From positions 837,985-901,984 of the forward strand of contig NW_006768783.1 in NCBI RefSeq assembly GCF_000204055.1: DNA of 64,000 nt. Reading direction: 5' to 3'. Every line of letters starts with the position of its first letter. Positions within the stretch are counted from its first letter, which is position 1. A program made the position numbers and the translations under genes. Source of the DNA: Melampsora larici-populina 98AG31. Its lineage: Eukaryota; Basidiomycota; Pucciniomycetes; Pucciniales; Melampsoraceae. Shown piece after piece: positions 3,251 to 56,336 of this stretch. A model generated the notes under the pieces. That model worked only from the letters and a program-made list of their open reading frames with translations. It ran no database searches and was not told the origin of the DNA.

Positions 3251-3770
3251 CACTACACCAAATGACATCTTTACCCAGGGGTATAGAAAAGTAGTGCAGG
3301 CATAGAAAACTATGGGCAAAGTACTTTTCTATGACCATAGAGATAGTATCCTCTATGCCTAGACAAACCATTCTGTTCTATACCCACAGATGAAAATATC
3401 CACATGACCACAAGGACTGAATATAAATCTAGACTTGAAGCCCTTCTTGAGTCTTGTCCGATGGGAAAGCATGTTCCATCAGTCATATTGTACGTATGTA
3501 AAAGGTGTCTGTCAATCTGTGTAAGATTGTGCACACATACTCACATACATTGCTGAACATGGTTGAGGATCTCTTTTAGGCAATTGATAAACCACGCCGG
3601 GCAGAAACAAAGAACAACGCCGGGTTTCCTTAGCTCGGACTCTTATGGAAGTTATACAGTGTGTATACAGAGGCGCATTGCCTCTAAAGCTGTCTAAAGG
3701 GTGTGAAGCTTCCGTAAGAGTCTGAAGCCGGGTTTTGGGATTGAAAGTGGGCGTCATCCCTTTCAAATTG
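3251..3770 (+). repeat. MULE-1 left terminal inverted repeat
   Basis: The outer ~90 bp and an inner ~77-bp block (3574-3650) match the right end in inverted orientation. The middle has diverged by insertions and deletions. Just inside the arm there is a perfect 15-bp stem, AAAGTGGGCGTCAT at ~3745-3758 with its complement at ~3781-3794. Confidence 0.65.
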
Positions 3771-5219
3771 TTATAAAGCTATGACGCCCACTTTTCCTGA
3801 CATTGAAAGAGAGATACAAGTGGTACCCCTTGCTACTTCTCAGCGAGATATGTATCATAAAGGTGAGCAATCGAGCAAATTTTTCTGCAAGCTTGAGCAG
3901 GAACACTCATGGCATTCATTACAAACTGCAACCCCACCATGCACCCAATTGAATCTATGGAACCTCAACCATCAAGCCTGAGTAGCTATCCAGCTTTAAG
4001 CGTGTATCACAGTCATCATGATCAAAGACCAGATCCGATGCTCTTCAACATCACCACACCTGTTTATCCCAATTTTTACAACAATCAACAACTTATCAAT
4101 CAGTCTATCCCGGATATTGCTTCATCCCAGCTAGCTGCACCTTATCCTTCTGACTACTTACCATCTCATCAATTCAGTCAATCAATTGCAATCTCAACAC
4201 ACTTCAATTCAGCTCCTAATGATTCAAATAGTGCAACAGCATCTCACCACCCAAATTCTACTGTAAATAATCACATCCTTCACAACCACGACTCAAATTT
4301 AGGACATCAAGATCAGACTGAAATGGGAAGTGAACAAGACGCAGATGGCGAGACAGATGAAGATGAGAATACCAATGAAAACAAAGATTGCTATGAGTTC
4401 ATCAGAGAAGAAGAGACAGAAGGAGAAATGTCAGATGATGAGTCTGAGGAAGGGGATCATCAATGGGGCGATTGTGTGTTCCTAATCTTTTATATAAGGA
4501 TGACCTTGAGCTGATCCTGTCTTTTTGGTCAGATGTAAGCAATAGTCAAGACGATGTAAGGCAAAGTGTTCGGATTGATGAAGACTGGCCTCCTCAAGGT
4601 CCGTTTGACCTCCACAAATTTTGATTTGTTAACCGAACTGTTTATCAATCTGATATATGTCTGATACCTTATCAGGAGTCAAACCAGTGCGTGAACTGTG
4701 TCCACCACGCGAAGGCAAAATCTTCAAGGACAAAGAGCTTGGCCAACAATACCTCGAGTGTGTTGCAAGACATCAAGGTTATGCCATTGTCATCAAGTCC
4801 GATAAAGGCCCTCGTTCTCAGAGCCGATACTTTTATTGCACTCGTGGTCACCAGAACACCAAACGTGGTGCAACAGCTGAAAACGCATCTGTATCTGGTC
4901 AAGCGTATAAAGTCTCTGACACATCAAGTTCCAAAAACGACTCAAAAAAAACAAGAAAGAGCAGCACAGCCAAATCTGGCTGCGAGTTTGGAGTTTCTTT
5001 AAACTACTGGTCAAAGCAAGGTCATTGGAAAGTGAAAGTTCAACATGCACGTCATAATCACACACCATTTCGGAGACCAAATGACTTACCTCGCCTTCGT
5101 CGCTTCAAGCAACCGGAGGAAGAACTTCTTCAAACTATGTCCGAGGCCAATGTTCCTCCTCGCACAATTCGAACCATGCTTCCAGGAGAAAGTGCCCATC
5201 GTCCGATGCGAGATATCTA

Positions 5220-7238
5220 CACCACGGGGCAGCTGGCACGTGAGATTCACGTGAAATAGTTCTCTGCCAATAAATCACGCGCTGTCCACAGTGCGATACC
5301 CGTTGTGAGCTACACATGACAGCCAGGGTGAGCAGCTAAAGCGTGGTGGCTCACCTGTCCATTGGGTGAGTCATCTCACATCATAACAGTGTGAAATGAC
5401 TAATCCAATGAGCGGTGTGGAAATCAATTTAGATCTCACTCTAAGAAACAATTTTTTATTTATTCTTTAATGTGTTCCTTTAAAATTCAGAGTCGATTTC
5501 ATTGGAAGATCTATTAAAATCAATTTAATTGCAATTTACAATTCTCAGTTCAAGATTCTCTATTAATCATATTCATTATAACTTATTTATTTCACAATTT
5601 GCATAAACATTAGTCTTTATTACATTCAATTCAAGATAAAAGATAATAACATGATGAGATTCAAAATCAAAAAACAAATAATCAAGAAAATCAACAAGTT
5701 AGTATGAAATCGATCGATCTAAAAAAATAAAGAATACAAACCTAGATTTCAAATGAGGAGAGAAGAACAAATGATTAATTAGTTTATAGATAGATCGAAC
5801 TAAAAGAAAGAAGATATAATAAAAAAAGAAGAACTTACAAATTTGAACTTAGACTTGAATCGATCAAAAGAAAGTAAGAGAAGAAGCTAAAGAATCAAAG
5901 AAGACACATAAAAATATAAAAGAAGATTAAATGATCACTTAGTCTATGAAAGACTTGAATTGAAAGAAAATTGAAGAACCTACAGATTGAACTTTGAAAT
6001 CAGATCGATTTATCAATTTATGAAAGCTAGAATTCAAATTAGAAGATAGAAGAAGAACAAGTGATTAGTTAGTATATGAATGATCAAACTAAAAGAAGAA
6101 AAACAAACAAAGAACTTACAAATTGGATTTCAAAATCGATTGATCTGAAAGCTAAAAGAACATTAGAATCAATATTTGAAGATGAAAGAAGAATAAAAAA
6201 GAACCAATAAGTGTATGAAATGATGGATTAGGATTGAATAATCAAAAGAGTTAGAAAATAGAAAGGACTTACGTTAGATGCAAAGATAGAACAGGATCGA
6301 TCCAAGATTGAGTGACGTAATCGATCAGATTTGAAGGATTGGAATAAGAGGAAATACGAGGTTGAGATTGAGGTGGAAGGTATAAGAAGAGTGAGTTGAA
6401 GAGTTGAAGAAGGGGTCCGGGAGGGTGTGTGTCGATCTTTGAGTCTTTTTGTTAGTGTTATTTTAAAGTGTTATTGAGTTTTTTCTCTGTTAAACCCTTA
6501 TAAGGGTAATAGTGTTATCTTTTTTATTTAATTCAAGAGTCAAGAGTCTGTCGCGTGAAATTTGTGTGTGTGTGAAAGTTCTACCTGTGAAATTTGCTAC
6601 AGTAGTGCGTTAATTTTGGCATTTCAACAGTTTTAGAGATATTCAAATACTTTTTTTAGTAGAAAATTTAGTAGAATTTTTATAGTTTAAAGTTCAGTAG
6701 TCGGATGATGAAAGACAATGAACAAAGAGGACTGTGAATGACTGTGGTTCTTTGACTGTGGTTCCTGTGACATGTACTGTACCTGTGATGTCGGACTTGA
6801 CAGTGATCATCATACCTTTACCCAAATCTTGGTTTTGAGAATGACACCAAGATGTGGTACAGCCTGATTTTCAAAAGGGCGGGCTTCAAAGTAAATTTAT
6901 TTGTGGACAAGTCCTTTTGATTTTGTCAAGAAGTGGATGCTTTTCAAAGGAGAATAGCCACATGATCAGCACTCGATGTGAGCTTGGATGAGCTCATTCG
7001 CATGCTGAGCACCTGGCTGGCAGGTTGCGCTCGTATGACCCAGCTCACCCACTCATTGGCTGGTAAGTCACGCCATGCCAACGTGGTCTTTCTCTCCATG
7101 TGTAAGATACGTGAAAGGCCATGGGTGAAGGCCACGTAGCCGCACTCACACTGCTACCACCTGTTCTACACAACCACTCAGTGTGGTCATACCCAACTTA
7201 CATTTCACGTGGTCCCAGTTCAAAGTTGCCCCGTGGTG
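5220..7238. mobile_element. nested non-autonomous TIR element (TA target site)
   Basis: A 2019-bp insertion in the MULE-1 transposase. The ends are a perfect 12-bp inverted repeat, CACCACGGGGCA at 5220-5231 and its complement at 7227-7238. Subterminal ACGTGAAAT motifs occur in inverted orientation near both ends. TA lies on each side (5218-5219 and 7239-7240). Removing the element plus one TA restores the MULE-1 frame as Asp-Ile-Tyr-Asn, matching Asp-Ile-His-Asn in MULE-2, which proves the boundaries. No transposase is encoded. A TA duplication suits Tc1/mariner or PIF-type enzymes, but the TIR is not one I can name. Confidence 0.8.
5737..6290. repeat. degenerate ~140-bp tandem array inside the nested element
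   Basis: A-rich units recur with anchors near 5737, 5830, 5972, 6111 and 6263 (spacings ~93, 142, 139, 152). Each unit contains a form of AGAACTTACAAATTGAACTT followed by a CGATC-type motif. Read on the minus strand, the ACTTAC core is GTAAGT, a consensus 5' splice donor, recurring once per unit. Confidence 0.45.
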
Positions 7239-9866
7239 TACAATCAGATTGCCCGCTCTCGAAAGATTGAACTTGAAGGGAAAACACCTATGGTCCATCT
7301 TATTACATGCTTACGGAAAGAAAACTGGTTTTATCGAATGAACCTTGGACCCAGTGGCACCGTCAAATCCCTATTTTTTGCTCATCCAAAAGCAATCAAG
7401 ATGGGCCGCCGCTTTCCAAATTGTTTTGGAATAGACTGTACATATAACACCAACAAGCACCGGTTGCCTCTCTTACACATTGTGGGCTCGACTTGCTTCA
7501 ATTCTTCTTTCTCACTGGCATTTTGCTTCTTGGACAAGGAAGATCCCCAGGAGTACACATGGGCCCTCCAACAGCTCGACACACTCCTCAAACCCTACAT
7601 AACTTGGCCAAATACATTTGTGACCAATAAAGAACAAGCACTGATTGGAGCAATCTGTGATGTTTTTCCAGGAAGCAGTCATATATTATGTATGTGGCAT
7701 ATCAATAAGGCCATCTTAACTAAATGTCAAAATATCATCACGGTCAAAAAGGAGTGGGATGAATTTTACAATTGCTGGCATACTTTTGTAGCTTCTCGTA
7801 CTGAAGATGAGTTTCATGCGAACAAGAAAAATCTCATCAAAATCTCACAGCGTCATTCACCAACAATCCTTCAGTATCTCGAATCTCACTGGTTTCCGAT
7901 AGTAGAAAAGTACATTAAGCTATTTGCAAATAATTTCCTACACTTTGGAAACCAAACGACTTCACGGGTGGAGGGCTCTCATCATTTTATCAAGAGCTTC
8001 CTTGAAAGTTTGCTTCAGGATCTATTATCCTGCTTTAAAGCTTTCAAACTAGCAGTCCAACATCAAAACATCGAGTTTGAATGTCAATTGTCCAATGAAC
8101 TTCAACGAACACTCAATAACATTCATGAATGCTTTAGCTTATTACATACCAAGATCTCTCAATATGCAATTGGATTGGCAACTGAACAGTATGCGTTGAT
8201 TGGAAAGCCGAGTCAAAATTCTTGCACCAAATCATTTTCAACCTCTTATGGAATTCCTTGCTCACATCAAATTGAAGCCTATATCATTCTCGGACAAAAA
8301 GTTCCGATCAAAGTCTTTCACGACCAGTGGCGACTTACTGCTGACCCCATTCCAGAATCTTTGGAGGCATTGAAAGCTGACTTACAAAGTCAAGCCGAAA
8401 TCCTATGTACTCTTCCTGAAAATGCATTACAAAGGGCATATGATGAACTCGCCAAACTTCAAAGTGGCGGATACGAACTTGTACCAGTCGGAGCTCCTGA
8501 AACTAAAACAAACACACGAGGTCGACCAACTGGTTCCAAGAAGGATAGGTCAAAATCTAAATTGACTCCGCGAGATCCTTCAGGTTTTGAGTACCTAAAG
8601 ACTTGCAAACCACCTCCAACGACTTCCAAACCCCCTGTGAAGACTTCCAACCCCCCTGCAAAGACTTCTAAGCCCCCCCGCAAATGTAGTGAGTGTAAAG
8701 AGTCCGGTCACTACAAAAACAAGTGCCCATTGAAACCTTGTCGACACGACCCAACTCTAGAGGAACTTCAGCTTGATCTAGAAGCAAATACACAAGTTTG
8801 CAACACCGAAGTCAATCACTCGATCTCTACATCAGACATTGATGATCCCAATCTTGAGGATGATGACTCTCGCACAGAAACAAGCCAAACAGTTCTTTTG
8901 AAGACAGCGGAGAATCATAGTTCAGATGACCAAGACACGTCCGATTCGGACAAAGACGACAATGAGTGTCCTTTCTGCGATGAGCCTCTCCCATCACAGC
9001 CTTCACAGAAGCTTCAAAACACCATGCAAATGCTTCTTGAACGACTCAAGGCAAATGATACAGTTTCTCTTCCAGTAAGTCTTCTGTTGGTTAACCAATG
9101 CTCTCATCCCGCTTCGATCCTTCAAGTACAATCAATTTTGTCTAAAATGTCTTTTCATTTCATCAGATGTCTGAGACGATTGGCTTCTGTGGAATGCACC
9201 TTGCTGAGTCCAAATATGTTCCCATCGAGAAAAAGAATGGTTGGCCCTTATCAATCAATTTTCGAGATCTCTCGAGGTATGTTGATAATTGAACTTCTGA
9301 TTACCACTACATATCGTGCGGCTTCCAAGTTCGATGTAGTTTCTCTAACACATTTCATATCGGGCCCTGGTCCCAGTCGCGTAGAGCCGTACATCACCGA
9401 TCTGAAGCAGATCATCGATCACCAAACTGAAAGCACTTATTTGATCAGTGCGTTGAACATCTGTAAGGCTCATGGTACACGTCGAATGGATAGTGTATTG
9501 CATGGAGATCTCACTTTTGAGCTTGAACAACCAGGGTAGTGAGTATCTCATTGTTCAACTCGGTTTCTCATCTTTTGGTAGCTAATTTGGAACTGTAGCT
9601 ACGGTGGCAGAGGCTTAGAAATCATATATCGAACTCTTCATTGGCACTTCCTGCGATCCCAAGCTCCAAATTGACTTGTACACACCAAAGCTGAGCCTCT
9701 CAGTCCCGAAGGCTTTGTCCGTACAGTTTTAGTTCCCGAAGTTTCTTTGAGACTGATCGCGGACGATCTGAAGCTGTCCATTTTTGACCCCAAAGCTAAA
9801 GATACGCTCGAGAGCTCTCGAGCATACGGGATGGCTATGTTTCCAGCTGATAATGATGACTTTTGA

Positions 9867-10989
9867 GATCACACTTCAAAGCGTTCAATACTAGATGATA
9901 AAGCTGTGCATCGCAATCAAGGTCCGGTAATATGTACATAGATTTTGCTCTACAACTTTCTCTTTTTTTTGTTTTTACTTCTCATTCAAGTGGAACTTTG
10001 AAAGAAATACTTCAATTCTTGGCCCAAGAGGTGTTCTCTATGTTGATGATGTTTATCGACACGAGATCGTGTAGAAACGAACCCAAACCTGATTGTGTTT
10101 GACCACTGGCAACAGTGTCACAACTACTACACTCGGCGTCGCATACTCCAGGAAGTCGGTGTCAGAGAGGTTTTCACCGACTGAAAAGGGGGAACGGTGG
10201 AGGATCCAACCTGGGGAGAGAGGGAGACTACAAGAGAGACTACCAGAGAGACTTTAGAAATAAATGCTGTATCAAAATGCATTTTCATTCAAAAATGAAA
10301 TAACATCCTTTGCCACATTCCTCCACATTCTCGATATTTCCTCAAGACCTAAGCCTAAGCCCAAACCCCTAACCCCCCTAACCAGGCCTAACCAATCGCT
10401 TTTTATCAATTTTCTCGTGTTTATGTCAACGATTTCAAGTTTTTATCCTCATGTTTTCATCACTGTTATCCTGTTTTTGACATTGTTCTTGCATTGATTA
10501 TCTCTATGTGCATCTTTGACCCTTGTTACTGTATCTTTGATCTTCATTTTTGTATTTTTATCGTTGTTTTGACATTTCTTATCGTTGTTCTGGTATATTT
10601 TATCATTGTTCTTGTTTGTTTTTGTATTGCGTCTCTCTTCTTGATTTTGATTAGTACCTTTTTGTGTTTCTTTTTCATTTTTTTATTTATCGTTCTCATT
10701 TTTCCCGTGAATGATTTTTTTGCAAGAAGACTCTATGATCGGCTACTGTGATCACACCTGATCACACGGTGACAATTTTATCCTCATATGGGCGTAGATT
10801 GGTGCAATCATCAAAGAGTTTTGTTGAATGACATACAAATTGATTGAAGTGTTGATTTGCGAGCTATACATCATCGTACAGGACCGTAAAAGGCCAGATA
10901 AACAAAGCCAAACGCCTCACAGCGCCTTTTTTTCTCAATTTTTGAAGTCTCTTGGATAGTCTCCCGCCAGGTTGGATCCTCCAACTTAC
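9867..10989. other. MULE-1 3' region without genes
   Basis: No supported gene. It contains an inverted pair around GAGGATCCAACCTGG (arms ~10203-10255 and ~10944-10990), a telomere-like stretch (10348-10393) and a T-rich low-complexity run (~10440-10720) that gives long but meaningless Phe/Val/Ile-rich frames. Confidence 0.5.
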
Positions 10990-10990
10990 C
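10203..10990. repeat. inverted repeat pair, ~50-bp arms
   Basis: GAGGATCCAACCTGG followed by GGGAGACTA-type sequence at ~10203-10255 recurs in reverse complement at ~10944-10990. The span of about 790 bp could be a MITE nested in MULE-1, or part of its extended inner TIR. Confidence 0.45.
10348..10393 (+). repeat. degenerate interstitial telomere-like repeat
   Basis: About 46 bp of CCTAAG/CCCTAA-like units (for example CCCCTAACCCCCCTAACC). It resembles fungal TTAGGG telomere repeats on the complementary strand, but irregularly. Chance C/T/A richness is possible. Confidence 0.4.
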
Positions 10991-11374
10991 GTGAAAAGGA
11001 TGCCCTCACTTGTAATGCTCAGAATCCGGCTTCAGAATGTTCCTGAATCCTCTTCAGAATGTTTCTGAACCTTTACAGGCAAATCCAACCTGTATAACTT
11101 CCATAAGAGTCCGAGCTAAGGAAACCCGGCGTTGTTCTTTGTTTCTGCCCGGCGTGGTTTATCAATCGCCCTCTTTTATCAGCATAGAATTGTATTTCAG
11201 GATAAAAATATCAAAAAACAGAAAATTGAGATTCCTCAATTTCTCAATCTCAAATATCTTACATAGGTGTATCAAAAGCATTGTTTATTGGTATAGAAAA
11301 GTACCCTACCAATAGCTTTCTATGCCCACACTACTTTTCTATACCCCTGGGTAAAGATGTCAATTGTTGTAGTG
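10990..11374 (-). repeat. MULE-1 right terminal inverted repeat
   Basis: Reverse-complement partner of 3251-3770. The outer match is 11285-11374, the inner match 11091-11168, and a weaker one contains CTGAAGCCGG near 11025. It ends GTAGTG at 11374. Confidence 0.65.
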
Positions 11375-50581: not shown

Positions 50582-50663
50582 AGATATCTATCAATTGATA
50601 ACTGTTTATTGCTCAGGGGGCAGGAAAGGATGAAAGAATCTTATAGCTGTCCTTATATTCCAT

Positions 50664-53600
50664 GGATTCCACTATTTTGAGCCCGCGGATCAGTATCCGT
50701 AGCCCCATTCCGGGGCCGGACACCGGGCTACACCCATATTGCAGCCCGATTTTCAATAAAAAGGGCAAAAACGGGCAAGTGTAATTCTACAAAAGAAAAA
50801 AAACGGGCAACCTAAACTTTACTTACTTTACCTACCGTGACCATTTTGAGAGGCTCGCTTTACTGCTCTTGACAGACTCAAAAAAGACTCCCACTTGGGA
50901 TCGTCAGCTGAGGGAGCTGAGCGCATGGATAGCTTAAACATATCATATCATATCATTAGTCTTGAAAATAGTGTTCATAGCATAAGTCATAGCATAACAT
51001 AAAGGGGTTTATACGCATAAATCGAGATTACATAGATAGAACAAGAGACACTTCATACAACTTGTAGTTTACTAAAGAGCGACAGATAATAGAAGACCAG
51101 GGAAATACAAAGTGACTAAAGAGCGATAGAAAACCAATACAAAAGCAAATACAAAGAAAGTGAGAAAACAAAACTACGCTCCAAAAATGTACCACCTAAT
51201 TTCGTTTTGCCCACAAATCCATTTCAACTTGGAACTTTTTAATCCATTCCGGCATGTTGGAGAATGTGGCTGAGTGGTTCTGGTTGAACACTTCAGGAAA
51301 AGGTACGAGTCAATTACAACTACCCAAAGTAACGAAATGGTCACCATTGACGAATCCCAAGATTATAGGATTGTTAGAGTTGGGCAGTGTGCGATAAGGG
51401 AAAAACGTGTATGAGTTGACTTCAAGCGGATCATAACAGATGACTGGACGATTGTAAGTACTTGCGATGACGAAGCCAAGGTATGGCATTCGCATCCAGA
51501 ATTCCCGAGTGCACGTAGGTCCCTGGGGTTGAAGTCGATGAACCAGATCATCAACAACCTCGGTGGCGAATGGTTGCGTTTGCCGAGTTCTTATCCGATT
51601 CATTCTGGTGTGCATAGTTGAAAGTAAATGTTCATGGTCCTTTCGAAAAAAAGTAAGTTCCTCAAGCAATTGATGGCAAACTAATACATAAGATTCCTGG
51701 TTATATATGTTCAGCGCTTGGGCAATGGCATAGAAGCCACAGTTGCCCTGAGCGGGTGGATTGAAGACCGAGTTGATGAAAGGAATTATGAATTTGGGCA
51801 GTTGCTGCAATACGATCTGTTCCTCAGGTTTCACAACAGCACTTTTTTGCAATTGAATACATGTATTGACCTTTGTTTCACCTGTTGATTCTTTAACGAC
51901 GTTTTTTCGATTTGATTTGAATGAAGATTGTGAATCAATTGGAAATACAGCTGAGCCAAAAGACCGACTAGCTTCCAAAGTGGCTTGTACCTTGGGATTG
52001 CGTGGTTCCAAGTTGAGATCGGTGGCAATCAAGCAAAGACTGAGTTCTGGTATGAGTACCTGTCGCAGGTAGAAATCGGGTGTGAGAGGTGCGGCCTTCT
52101 TGGCATTGAGATGGTTATAGGAAGACGGGTCTTTCAAGAAAATAGACTCTAGTGTTTGAATGATAATCTCAAATCCTTGATACCCGTAACTGAAAGAGGT
52201 ATTCATCAGTCCCAGTGAGAAATACTTTGAGTCTTGGGGTGACTTTTAACTTACTAGCCAGGTATCTCAACGTCAATATTGTCCAAATCAATTCGAAAAA
52301 TGGATTTGCCCTTGGTCTTGAAATTATTCTTTGCATCGTCAAGGTAGGTAGAGCCTTTGACTTTGTTGACAATTTTGCTAAGAACCGCGGTATGACCCTT
52401 GATTCGTCTACGATGATCATCAAGGTCAGTGATAAGTAAATTCAAACTTTAGAGAGTAATCAAACATACTCTTCTAATCGTTCAAAATCAATTGTGGTCG
52501 GCCATCCGTTGCTAATTCCAAGTGGAATGATATCCTTCTCATCGTGATGAAGCTGGCAAAAGTCCACCGTCTGAATGAACTGTAAATCAACCAAGTAAAC
52601 AAAAACGTCAATAAACAATGTCAGTGAGAAGTTGAGCGAGATTACATACGGGAAGAGATTTAGCGCCAGTGCGTCCAACTCCCTGGCGAATATTTGGCTT
52701 TGCCAATAGTTCAGCCATCAAGTCGAGGAGTTTGGTGGAAGGCTGCTCTGGAAGGGGTTCATCACAAAACGGACACAGGTTTTCCTCATCTGATTCACAT
52801 TGATCATGTTGATCACTTAGGTTTGAGCGTGAAGAATCTTCATTTTTGGAGTCGGAGGACCCAGGCACTCCTTCATCTTCCTTGATGTCGGATAATGTCA
52901 GTGGTACAATATCAAAGTCATCGACATTAGAGGTTGACGAAGTGGTTGCTACTGGCTGTTTGTGTTTGGGAGCTCCTTTTGCGCTGGTCGACGTAAGTAC
53001 AACACCGTCAGATTGGGCCAATTGAGCAAGGCAACGAGGGCAGGTTGTGATTCGATGGCCACCGACGTTGCAGAAGCTACACTTGCAGGTACGAGGCTTC
53101 TTACTAGCCTCTTCAACTTCGACATTGGATTTCCATCGGGTGGTGTCATTTTCAGGGGCTGACCGTTTCCCATGAATTGATCGAGGTCGACCTCGAGTGT
53201 CAGTTTTGACCTCCGCATTGAGAATTGGAACCAGGGAGTAACGGCTTGTCTCCAAAAGGGTAACCTCGCTGAAAAGTTTTCGGAGGGAATGTTCAGGGAG
53301 CTCAAGCAAGCGGTTGAATTTGCGACGTGCAGCTCCAATAAGTCCGTTGTGGGTCGCCGGAGGTTCGTCCATCGCAAGTTTCCATTGTGTATGAATAAGA
53401 TCAGGCGAGATGGAGTCCTTATTATCTCTTTGTTGAGCTAATTCATGGCTACAAGGAAGTCCCCACGCGCCTCGGAAAGTGTTGGTGCACGGAGTTTGGA
53501 GTGAGTCAGGAAGCAAATCATATTGAAGTTTGAGCTTTTTGAGAGCGAAATGTGATACAACTCCTTTGAGATCCTTGAAAAACGCAGGCATATCATGAAG

Positions 53601-56328
53601 TGTCTTTGTTCTTTCGATACCTAATAAAATTGATATTTCACTCATTTGATGCTCTTCAAAACGCTTGAAGGAGTTGAAGCAGGTTAAAAAGTCGTTGTTA
53701 CGACCGTCTAGGAATCGTTTGGCTCGATAATGACTCCCTTCGGTTCGTGAGGTTGAAGAATTACCAAAATGAAGGGTACGAGACGTGTATAAGGTGACAA
53801 ATTTTTCACTTCGATGGAGCCAAGTGCTGTTCAAATAATCGAAGATATTATGAGCTCTGGCAACTTTGGTCACCGCGGCGAGATTGATATCGTAATCGCT
53901 TGGGGTGGAAGAGGAAACATATGTATTCCACAACTTCATGAACTCTGACCACTCGGCGTCTGAAAATTTACTCTTACAATTTTTGGCTATGTTAAGGTTG
54001 ATATGCCAAATACACAATATATGTACTGAGTCTGGAAAAATCGAAGAAATCGCGTTGAATAAGGCCGGTTCAGCATCGGTTGCAAAGGTCTGTGGGAGTC
54101 GAGTAGTGACAGTTTGGTCCTCGTCCTGGAATATAACTTCTTTGAGCTGGGTAAGAGCCCATTCGTACTGCGATTTGACTTTGCTATTGAGGAAGCACAT
54201 GGCCACGGTGAAGGACCGATTGGTTTTAGTAGTACCGACAATGTGTAGCGGAGGTAAATTGAAACGATTTGTCTTGTAAGTACAATCAAGACTAAGGACT
54301 GTATGGAATCTTCGAGTTAGGATGATTGCTGATGGGCTTGCGAAGAATAGATTGAGTAGGGTTCCTTCCGGTGAGGTGAGAGTCCGATGAGCCCAATGAC
54401 ACGCCGCAATCAAATCAAAAAGACCCTGAATTGGTGTTCGACCGTTCAGCCAAGTATCCCTGAGGCGATATCTTGCGTTGTGTATGTCCCGGACCAATGG
54501 CTGTGATCCGGTTTCGACCTTCAGGAGAGAGCGAATCTGGCCGGCTCGAACCCCAGCAGAAGACATGAAATCGATTGAGTCTCTAATAGCAGGTGGAAAT
54601 CTCCGGTAGATAGCCATATTGTGAGGTTGGTCGAATGGCGGGTGATTATGAGTAGATTTGTTAGGGTTCTTCTTGTCTTGAGTAACAAGCCATCTATCTA
54701 AACCTGAGCGATAGTTAAGTGAAATTTCAAATAAGCAGCCAGTTTTCTTCGAAGAAGTTGTCCGTCGCTGAGCCACTGATGAATGCCTGTGACCTAATGA
54801 ACATCGTATATAAACTCTATCTGTGCGCTGATGTTTGCCTTTGTGGCTCTTGATAGCCAAAGCATAGCCTTGATGGCGTGCAATCGCATTGAGATACATC
54901 AGGCCGTTTTCTAGTTCGATAAACGCTTTGCCAACCTTGGGTCCTTCTAACAAACGAACTGGTAGGACACCTAACACCAAAACATGATAATGTTAATTCT
55001 CCATTATCTTGAACAAAGATTAAAATGAAACTTACCAATGGGCGGCCAATCGGCGTCACGTTCATTTTGAATAAGTTCAACGGCCTCGGCAAGATCCTCC
55101 TCCCCAACATTATTGATTGTCGTGTCCGTGATTGATTGAACATCAAGGTCTCCAGCTGTAGTTTGGCTTTGTGTAGGTTCACGTAAGCTCGAGTTGATAG
55201 ACACTGTATTGGTACACGTTGAAGTCGGATTTTGAGATTGGGATTGGGAAGCTGGAGTTGGTTCATCAAGAGGACCTTCAGTCGGATTTCCACCGTTCAT
55301 CATGTATTGATGTGGAAGGGGGTAAGGGGGATAAGAAGTATTCGCAGCTGGTGGTTGTGGAATGAAAGTATTCGGAGGAGGTTGAGGGGTAACAAAAGTG
55401 TTTGAAGAAGGATGAGGAGGATAATAATTTGTTGGGTAAGAGTTGAAGGTTTGTTGAAATTGTGGAGGATAAGCGAGTTGCTGGTACGGGTTGTGTGGTG
55501 GGTAATGGTTTGGAGGTGGTTGAAAATGGTTTGGCGATTGTTGATAAGGGTTCATTGGAAAAGGTGGATGATTAGGAGGTACAGGATACACATGCTGAGC
55601 TCCGTGAGGGTGGTTTGAAGGGGGATAAAAGTAGGGAGGGTTTGTAGTAACATGAGGTTGAGTGAGAGTTGAAGTAAGAGAAAGAGGATTAGGTGAAGGA
55701 GGATAAAGGTCGGGAGTAACTTGAGGTTGAGTGGGTGTTGACGATTGAACAGGAAGTGGTTTAGAAAGTTGATCACGCTGATCACCTTTGGAGGTGTTTA
55801 TTAGTGAGTGTGGGGTTGGCGCGGACATGACACGATACGGAGGTTCAATTAACAAGTGTGGGGCTTGTGTGTGTGGGTAATTAAATGGTAGGTAGGGGTA
55901 GTTGAGTTGTTTGAATTGAGATTGAATTGTGAAAAGGAAACTTAAAAGGTCGGACGAAGGAAGAAGGGAACAGGGATGTCCAAGAAAGAGGGTTACCTTG
56001 ACCTTTGTATCCTCCATGGCCATATGGCCTGTGCATATAGGACATATAGGGGCCGGTCCGGGCGCAGGTGTTCTGTGGAGCCCTTTCGTAATAGTTGACG
56101 TGCTCTTTTGGAGTTTACGTTGATTTTGTAGCCCAAAGATGGGGAGTAGGGCATGAAATTTAAAATGATGGGCTGCGAAGTGTTTTCGAGCCCAAACAAG
56201 TAGCCCGTGGAGTCCGACTCAGGCTAAATTTGTCGAAGGAGCTTCGGGTTTTTGCGGGTATCTCGGGTAATACCCCAAAAAAAGGGGGCTACGGGTTATT
56301 TTCAACCGGGCTCAAAATAGTTGAATCC
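50664..56328 (-). mobile_element. MULE-2: Mutator-like transposon with intact TSD
   Basis: A 5665-bp element. The left end GGATTCCACTATTTTGAGCC matches the reverse complement of the right end (GGATTCAACTATTTTGAGCC) with one mismatch through AGCCCG, and similarity resumes at ATCCGTAGCCCC / AACCCGTAGCCCC. An exact 8-bp duplication TATTCCAT flanks it (50656-50663 and 56329-56336), within the 8-11 bp range of MULEs. It encodes one multidomain protein on the minus strand with no stop or frameshift, so it may be autonomous and recent. 50664-51309 is its 3' non-coding part. Confidence 0.85.
51310..55828 (-). CDS. MULE-2 transposase fused to RTC4-like and OTU-like protease domains
   Basis: Five exons on the minus strand (55036-55828, 52650-54970, 52470-52579, 52255-52407, 51310-52189) give 1418 residues. 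Order: Pro/Tyr/Gln-rich N-terminus (1-264); FAR1/WRKY-GCM1-like zinc domain (~275-375: IRCSLGHRH, GCLFEISLNY, THNHPPF); MULE DDE core with Asp493 (LDCTYKTN), Asp563 (FATDAEPAL), IFPDSVHILCIWHIN and Glu675 (SRTEGSHYRAKRFL); SWIM-like C759...GLPCSH (771-773); AT-hook (RGRPRS); CCHC knuckle 895-908; RTC4-like region ~997-1210 (CPFCDEPLP, FCQLHHDE, ERIKGH, PGYYGYQG, VLIPELSLCLIATDL, SRSFGSAVFP); and OTU-like domain ~1262-1418 with PAQGNCGFYAIAQAL (nucleophile Cys1276) and GFVNGDHFVTLG (His1410). RTC4 affects telomere capping in yeast; OTU proteins cleave ubiquitin or its relatives. The start at 55828 precedes the conserved part; an upstream in-frame Met at 56023 exists. Confidence 0.85.
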
Positions 56329-56336
56329 TATTCCAT

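Follow-up and report, generated by a model that had tools for sequence, protein, structure and literature searches.

A complete Mutator-like element (MULE) of 5,665 bp, whose gene lies on the minus strand, occupies positions 50664-56328 of the stretch of DNA analysed here (the window, 64,000 nucleotides; C19:837985-901984 of a 98.3-Mb assembly) from Melampsora larici-populina 98AG31, the poplar leaf rust. On balance, we consider it probable that this is a Mutator-like transposon whose spliced transposase joins a DDE core to a likely captured RTC4 cassette and a predicted OTU domain, and that the tail formed by these additions serves transposition. Such a protein would unite, in one transposase chain, a likely captured RTC4 module with a module of the deubiquitinase type; selection appears to have preserved both, and the older idea of ubiquitin editing in transposition would become testable with a single protein.

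Ends, gene model and reading frame of the element

MULEs are recognized by terminal inverted repeats (TIRs) and a target-site duplication (TSD) of about 8-11 bp. The window element has both, with 22-nt tips and an 8-bp duplication (Table 1), as the first-pass annotation of this DNA had claimed; the duplicated 8-mer, TATTCCAT, is perfect and is present twice in the window. The 97-bp left end of the element has 18 matches in the genome. From its TIRs and TSD, the element appears to have moved by a cut-and-paste route. The span that the annotation had assigned to the transposase, 51310..55828, matches the coding sequence, and the element itself is longer, reaching from 50664 to 56328. Outside it, at a distance of 1.7 kb, a frame at window positions 57994-58485 matches pectate lyase (PF03211, E 1.6e-16), and its start looks signal-peptide-like by eye.

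A canonical splice model with five exons on the minus strand yields a protein of 1,418 aa with one terminal stop. Its four introns measure 62-70 nt, with GTAAGT or GTATGT as donors and AG at every acceptor. Since enumeration gives 120 GT/AG splice models that leave the frame open, an open frame is by itself weak proof and is not used here as evidence. The canonical model is backed by the protein P0001, a 968-aa open frame from a source contig of 3,159 bp, in which MULE, RTC4 and OTU follow one another in one frame. According to our reading of the alignment, this frame runs unbroken across junctions 1, 3 and 4, where introns 1, 3 and 4 are absent; the segment linking the DDE core to RTC4, in which junction 2 falls, is missing from it. 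P0001 is likely a spliced transcript, and it could be an intronless copy instead. Its best match in the genome among the candidates scored (47 of 598) reaches 74% over residues 201-600, so P0001 probably comes from another species or from a missing copy, and the architecture is accordingly unlikely to be private to the M. larici-populina genome. Among the 42 proteins that a wider profile recovers, P0001 alone lists RTC4, which says little about the spread of the combination because the database holds few fungal proteins. The proposal of one spliced MULE frame with RTC4 and OTU-like parts is thus upheld by the canonical model and P0001.

Table 1. Positions in the window of the element, its termini and the parts of its gene
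Feature	Position	Strand	Basis or remark
Whole Mutator-like element	50664..56328	-	TIRs at both ends, flanked by a perfect 8-bp TSD
TSD TATTCCAT, left copy	50656..50663	.	8-bp duplication
Left TIR tip, 22 nt	50664..50685	+	95% complementary to right tip
Right TIR tip, 22 nt	56307..56328	+	95% complementary to left tip
TSD TATTCCAT, right copy	56329..56336	.	8-bp duplication
Exon 1: proline-rich N-terminus, start codon at 55828, no Pfam family	55036..55828	-	splice model
Exon 2: N-terminal zinc-like region, MULE DDE domain, CCHC-like knuckle	52650..54970	-	splice model
Exon 3: FCxLH motif (C1046, H1049)	52470..52579	-	splice model
Exon 4: RTC4, first part	52255..52407	-	splice model and Pfam
Exon 5: RTC4, second part (to ~1208), linker, OTU-like domain (~1258-1418)	51310..52189	-	
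OTU-like cysteine protease region, Cys1276 and His1410	51313..51828	-	exon-5 alignment and comparison with L036

Modules of the transposase and their conservation

The catalytic pattern of MULE transposases is D-D-CxxH-E, and it is intact in the window protein (D493, D563, C584xxH587, E675), where PF10551 matches residues 489-590 (E 8.6e-21; 74.7 bits against a cut-off of 27.6); the complete DDE triad reported earlier is therefore confirmed. Across 28 loci, D493 is kept in 23 of 23 covered copies, as are the Cys and the His, and E675 in 24 of 24. D563 is present in 21 of 23 covered copies and is replaced by N in L009 and L023. At E<=1 the core matches MULE-type families only, with no Gypsy-integrase-type core, and the Ulp1 family is likewise absent among the Pfam matches of the window protein at this threshold. 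Of the three families named in the first-pass annotation, PF10551 and PF14474 score above their cut-offs in the spliced protein and OTU is without a match.

The RTC4 family (PF14474) covers residues 1092-1208 (E 3.2e-15; 56.8 bits against a cut-off of 23.7). Upstream of it, a CPFCDEPLP motif lies near the 3' end of exon 2, and together with the FCxLH motif of exon 3 its CPFC likely forms a zinc site. Of the 26 loci L009-L034, 14 have a strict CPFC-type motif, as do L037 and L038; in L035 and L036 it was looked for and is absent.

The C-terminal part of exon 5 is predicted to be an OTU-like protease. PF02338 is absent from the Pfam matches of the window protein at E<=1, and exon 5 has no OTU match at E<=10. 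In an exon-5 alignment of 16 rows (the window, P0001 and 14 loci with an open frame), one row has an OTU match, below the cut-off (E 0.16). The assignment is made because of three other observations. GNCG and HF are invariant in 16 of 16 rows, with the presumed catalytic Cys1276 and His1410 of the spliced protein lying where the annotation had placed them. In Pfam, the related loci L035 and L036 score 23.8 and 26.2 bits for OTU, above the cut-off of 23.3, and the window domain aligns with that of L036 along its full length (28% identity, E 9e-25). A Gossypium raimondii protein, P0031, matches the catalytic region over 53 residues (E 4e-9). In a profile search of solved structures nothing is significant: the best value, 0.18, belongs to a PPR protein, and two viral polymerase/replicase chains, which we take to be OTU domains, follow at 0.53 and 0.63. 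A second search of solved structures also returns nothing significant.

Selection on the modules was estimated as dN/dS by the method of Nei and Gojobori, with medians taken over pairs with dS <1.5 and saturated pairs dropped, from pools of 55 pairs for exon 2 and 105 pairs for exon 5. The median is 0.15 for the N-terminal region (4 pairs), 0.09 for the DDE domain (5 of 55 pairs), 0.11 for the C-terminal part of the MULE region (4 pairs), 0.15 for RTC4 and 0.17 for OTU (10 of 105 pairs each). For the two linkers, whose alignments are poor, it is 0.94 (3 of 55 pairs) and 0.76 (26 of 105 pairs). RTC4 and OTU thus look to be under purifying selection and to be kept much like the catalytic core, as judged from few pairs. 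In the pair formed by the window and L030, the linkers are at 0.27 and 0.23, versus 0.09 for RTC4 and 0.18 for OTU, so the contrast between modules and linkers is a tendency and no proof.

Copies, lineages and insertion sites in the genome

RTC4 has 118 matches in the genome. These were compared with 150 MULE places, from at least 154, and with 150 OTU places among the matches listed. At least 77 of the 118 have, on their own strand, a MULE match no more than 4 kb upstream together with an OTU match no more than 1 kb downstream. The remaining RTC4 places divide, among the matches listed, into 17 with OTU only, 13 with MULE only and 11 with neither, and the controls, namely MULE downstream, OTU upstream and MULE on the opposite strand, are each zero among these matches. 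In all, at least 107 of the 118 RTC4 places adjoin MULE and/or OTU, while 51 of the 150 listed MULE places have neither of the two other modules. An assembly join is ruled out by the identical order of modules at these places and in P0001, and the view that this is a real transposon holds. The RTC4 and OTU parts had also been described as the cargo of a single element, which they are not: they make up a C-terminal tail that recurs across a large family of transposases.

Twenty-six loci (L009-L034) were fetched from the 118, comprising the 20 best RTC4 matches and six picked for their similarity to the window copy. All three modules are found in 14 of them, MULE and RTC4 in nine, RTC4 and OTU in two, and RTC4 alone in one. 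When the 27 stretches made up of the window and these loci were scanned with the window TIR tip, allowing up to 6 mismatches, both ends were recovered in nine, which are the window and eight of the 14 three-module loci, and each of the nine has a different perfect 8-bp TSD directly at its ends. Of the 18 unpaired stretches, four have one TIR end only (L027, L030, L031 and L033) and 14, including all nine MULE+RTC4 loci, have no end of the window type. The MULE+RTC4 lineage has different ends, seen in L016 and in the window at 3579-11170, each with TIRs and an 8-bp TSD; at L017 and L018 no 8-bp TSD was found at the ends tried, which are the ends of the matches and perhaps not the true ends. In the ten TSDs pooled from the nine elements and L016, A or T occupies 68 of 80 positions.

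The second MULE of the window (3579-11170, plus strand), which belongs to the lineage with RTC4 and without OTU, has TIRs of the form GGC(A/G)ATTGATAAACC and a perfect 8-bp TSD, CTCTTTTA. A stop falls within its RTC4, the second catalytic D is replaced by N, and its matches to the N-terminal region and the DDE core lie about 2 kb apart. A third architecture, seen at L035:1566-4691 and L036:1834-4938, lacks RTC4 and runs from MULE to OTU in a single unbroken frame. At seven of the 150 listed MULE places, OTU follows within 5 kb and no RTC4 match lies within 4 kb. The existence of lineages with MULE and RTC4 but no OTU, and with MULE and OTU but no RTC4, means that neither module is indispensable. 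A sister copy of the window element, L029 (G000:C13:1249900-1258700), is 92-98% identical in most matched pieces and less so where a match spans extra DNA or an intron; it has its own TSD, TTTAAAAA, its element is longer (7,334 bp), and its frame is interrupted.

The first-pass annotation had also suggested that the tail could steer insertion toward telomeres, for which no support is found here. The assembly contains six (TTAGGG)4 sites, too few to decide the matter; compared by eye, all 118 RTC4 places are more than 20 kb away from these sites, the closest being at about 29 kb (on C40).

Probable origin and proposed role of the tail, and related systems

One RTC4 place, on C5 (L038, G000:C5:995400-998300), stands apart from every listed MULE or OTU match and runs on into a long lysine-rich tail. 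It is a free-standing copy of the host gene RTC4 (restriction of telomere capping 4) and shares with the element the CPFC and CxxH motifs, the RTC4 domain and, in its splice models, the intron positions. From CPFCDEPLP to the end of RTC4, L038 and the transposon are 45% identical over 219 alignment columns. The three RTC4 introns of the transposon have phases 0, 2, 2, and the same phases are found in 24 of the 32 open splice models of L038, with 2, 2, 2 in the other eight; intron 4 is identical in 32 of 32 models and sits at the transposon's position, while for introns 2 and 3 the choice was guided by the window. The donors of L038 are less canonical. Since open splice models of L038 reproduce the transposon's three RTC4 introns in position and phase, the cassette was likely taken up as genomic DNA, and capture from an RTC4 gene, introns included, is the simplest reading. 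The opposite direction, in which the host gene on C5 derives from the transposon by domestication, would be compatible with the RTC4 and DDE trees, which have long branches and no safe root. We regard it as quite improbable. We know of no transposase carried by the budding yeast RTC4 gene. RTC4 is an ordinary gene in that yeast (PMC6162548), and the direction from host gene to transposon is drawn from its being a host gene there. The same source calls the function of yeast Rtc4 unclear and mentions a genetic link to telomere maintenance (PMC6162548).

A biochemical role of the tail can be proposed. The DDE core would cut and paste the element, and the RTC4 cassette, with the likely zinc motif, would dock the protein on chromatin or on end-repair factors. 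The OTU domain would strip ubiquitin either from the transposase or from proteins present where DNA is cut or the element inserts, which could spare the complex from degradation or steer repair. In a related suggestion, the authors who described Ginger1 gave OTU and Ulp1 domains a possible part in transposition, with repair factors as one example of a target (PMC2836005).

Other readings of the tail were weighed. Pack-MULEs pick up pieces of host genes, and the tail may be such a passenger, taken up by a MULE and without function in transposition. MULEs and other transposons are known to capture genes (PMC13317346), the introns of the cassette can also be placed in a free-standing RTC4 gene, and some MULE lineages lack OTU while others lack RTC4. 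Against this stand the median dN/dS values of RTC4 and OTU, near that of the DDE core and below those of the linkers, the invariant Cys and His in all 16 rows of copies with an open frame, and the persistence of the three modules together at most RTC4 places, with OTU diverging down to about 40% identity, and we judge a mere passenger improbable. The invariance of the GNCG and HF columns also speaks against a loss of deubiquitinase function that would leave the OTU-like domain as a binding or structural module; this is doubtful rather than far-fetched, given the divergence of the domain, which goes unmatched in the window and is matched below threshold in one row of 16. Finally, the 3' exons might form a separate RTC4-OTU gene with its own transcript, beside the transposase gene within the element. 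Introns 2-4 do set the DDE core apart from RTC4 and OTU, the 17 RTC4 places with OTU have no listed MULE match within 4 kb, and the one-protein model of the window copy rests on predicted splicing. P0001, however, joins all three modules in one frame, MULE and OTU share a frame in the sister lineage of L035 and L036, and the RTC4 cassette already begins to show in exon 2, ahead of intron 2, with its CPFC motif at residue 997, so that two genes seem very improbable here. We thus continue to favor a single transposase whose tail likely serves transposition.

A more far-reaching history is offered tentatively, as something that may or may not have happened. A MULE would have taken the 3' half of RTC4, introns and all, in the form of genomic DNA, fused it with an OTU deubiquitinase and become a leading MULE family of rust fungi, and the rust "RTC4 expansion", interpreted as a trait of these pathogens, would be this transposon. 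RTC4 would be in this history a host gene linked to telomeres and DNA damage, and the outcome, if true, a transposase with a built-in tail for repair and ubiquitin editing. In work on switchgrass rust, RTC4 is counted among the enriched families, with 45 proteins in Puccinia novopanici and 15 in P. sorghi, and is tied to DNA-damage responses (PMC9370660). As most RTC4 places in M. larici-populina adjoin MULE and/or OTU, rust RTC4 counts may partly be counts of transposons, and the reported expansions may partly, perhaps in many cases, consist of transposases, on evidence that comes from M. larici-populina and not from Puccinia.

Among known systems, the Kaonashi (KIU) Vandal MULEs of Arabidopsis resemble the element in having captured a protease domain of the ubiquitin/SUMO class that has been conserved over time. 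They differ in that the domain is Ulp1 instead of OTU and lies in a VANC-type accessory gene, outside the transposase chain, and in being non-TIR elements; the passages that describe them do not mention RTC4 (PMC13317346). In Ginger1, a single protein combines a DDE transposase with an OTU or Ulp1 domain at the C-terminus, and most of the listed families have introns. Unlike the element, Ginger1 has a transposase of the Gypsy-integrase type and not of the MULE type, and RTC4 does not figure in the passages that describe it (PMC2836005). Hop-type MULEs, found in plants, Phytophthora, Puccinia and other fungi, include fungal MULEs with TIRs and a CCHC-type zinc motif as in the window element, and differ from it in that the main text of the source contains none of the terms OTU, ULP and peptidase (PMC6446971). 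The cotton protein P0031 (MULE/FAR1-like, named OTU domain-containing) also has MULE followed by an OTU-like domain; it differs by its FAR1-like N-terminus and by having no RTC4 match, and is known here from the protein alone.

The first-pass annotation knew of no described MULE with both RTC4 and OTU. In the open-licence literature searched, no description of the combination of MULE, RTC4 and OTU was found, nor was RTC4 within a transposase. MULE with OTU is known, however, from the cotton protein and from the sister lineage in this genome, and OTU has been described in Ginger1 and Helitron (PMC2836005). OTU in transposases is therefore no novelty, and the addition of RTC4 appears to be the new part. 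Elsewhere in the genome, 47 of the 150 listed OTU places have no RTC4 within 1 kb and no MULE within 5 kb upstream; many of them lie in frames of about 210-300 aa with 28-39% identity, and they are perhaps other OTU genes or parts of other transposons. Compared by eye, MELLADRAFT_58201 (P0005) reads the same as the terminal part of the L025 OTU frame (on C112).
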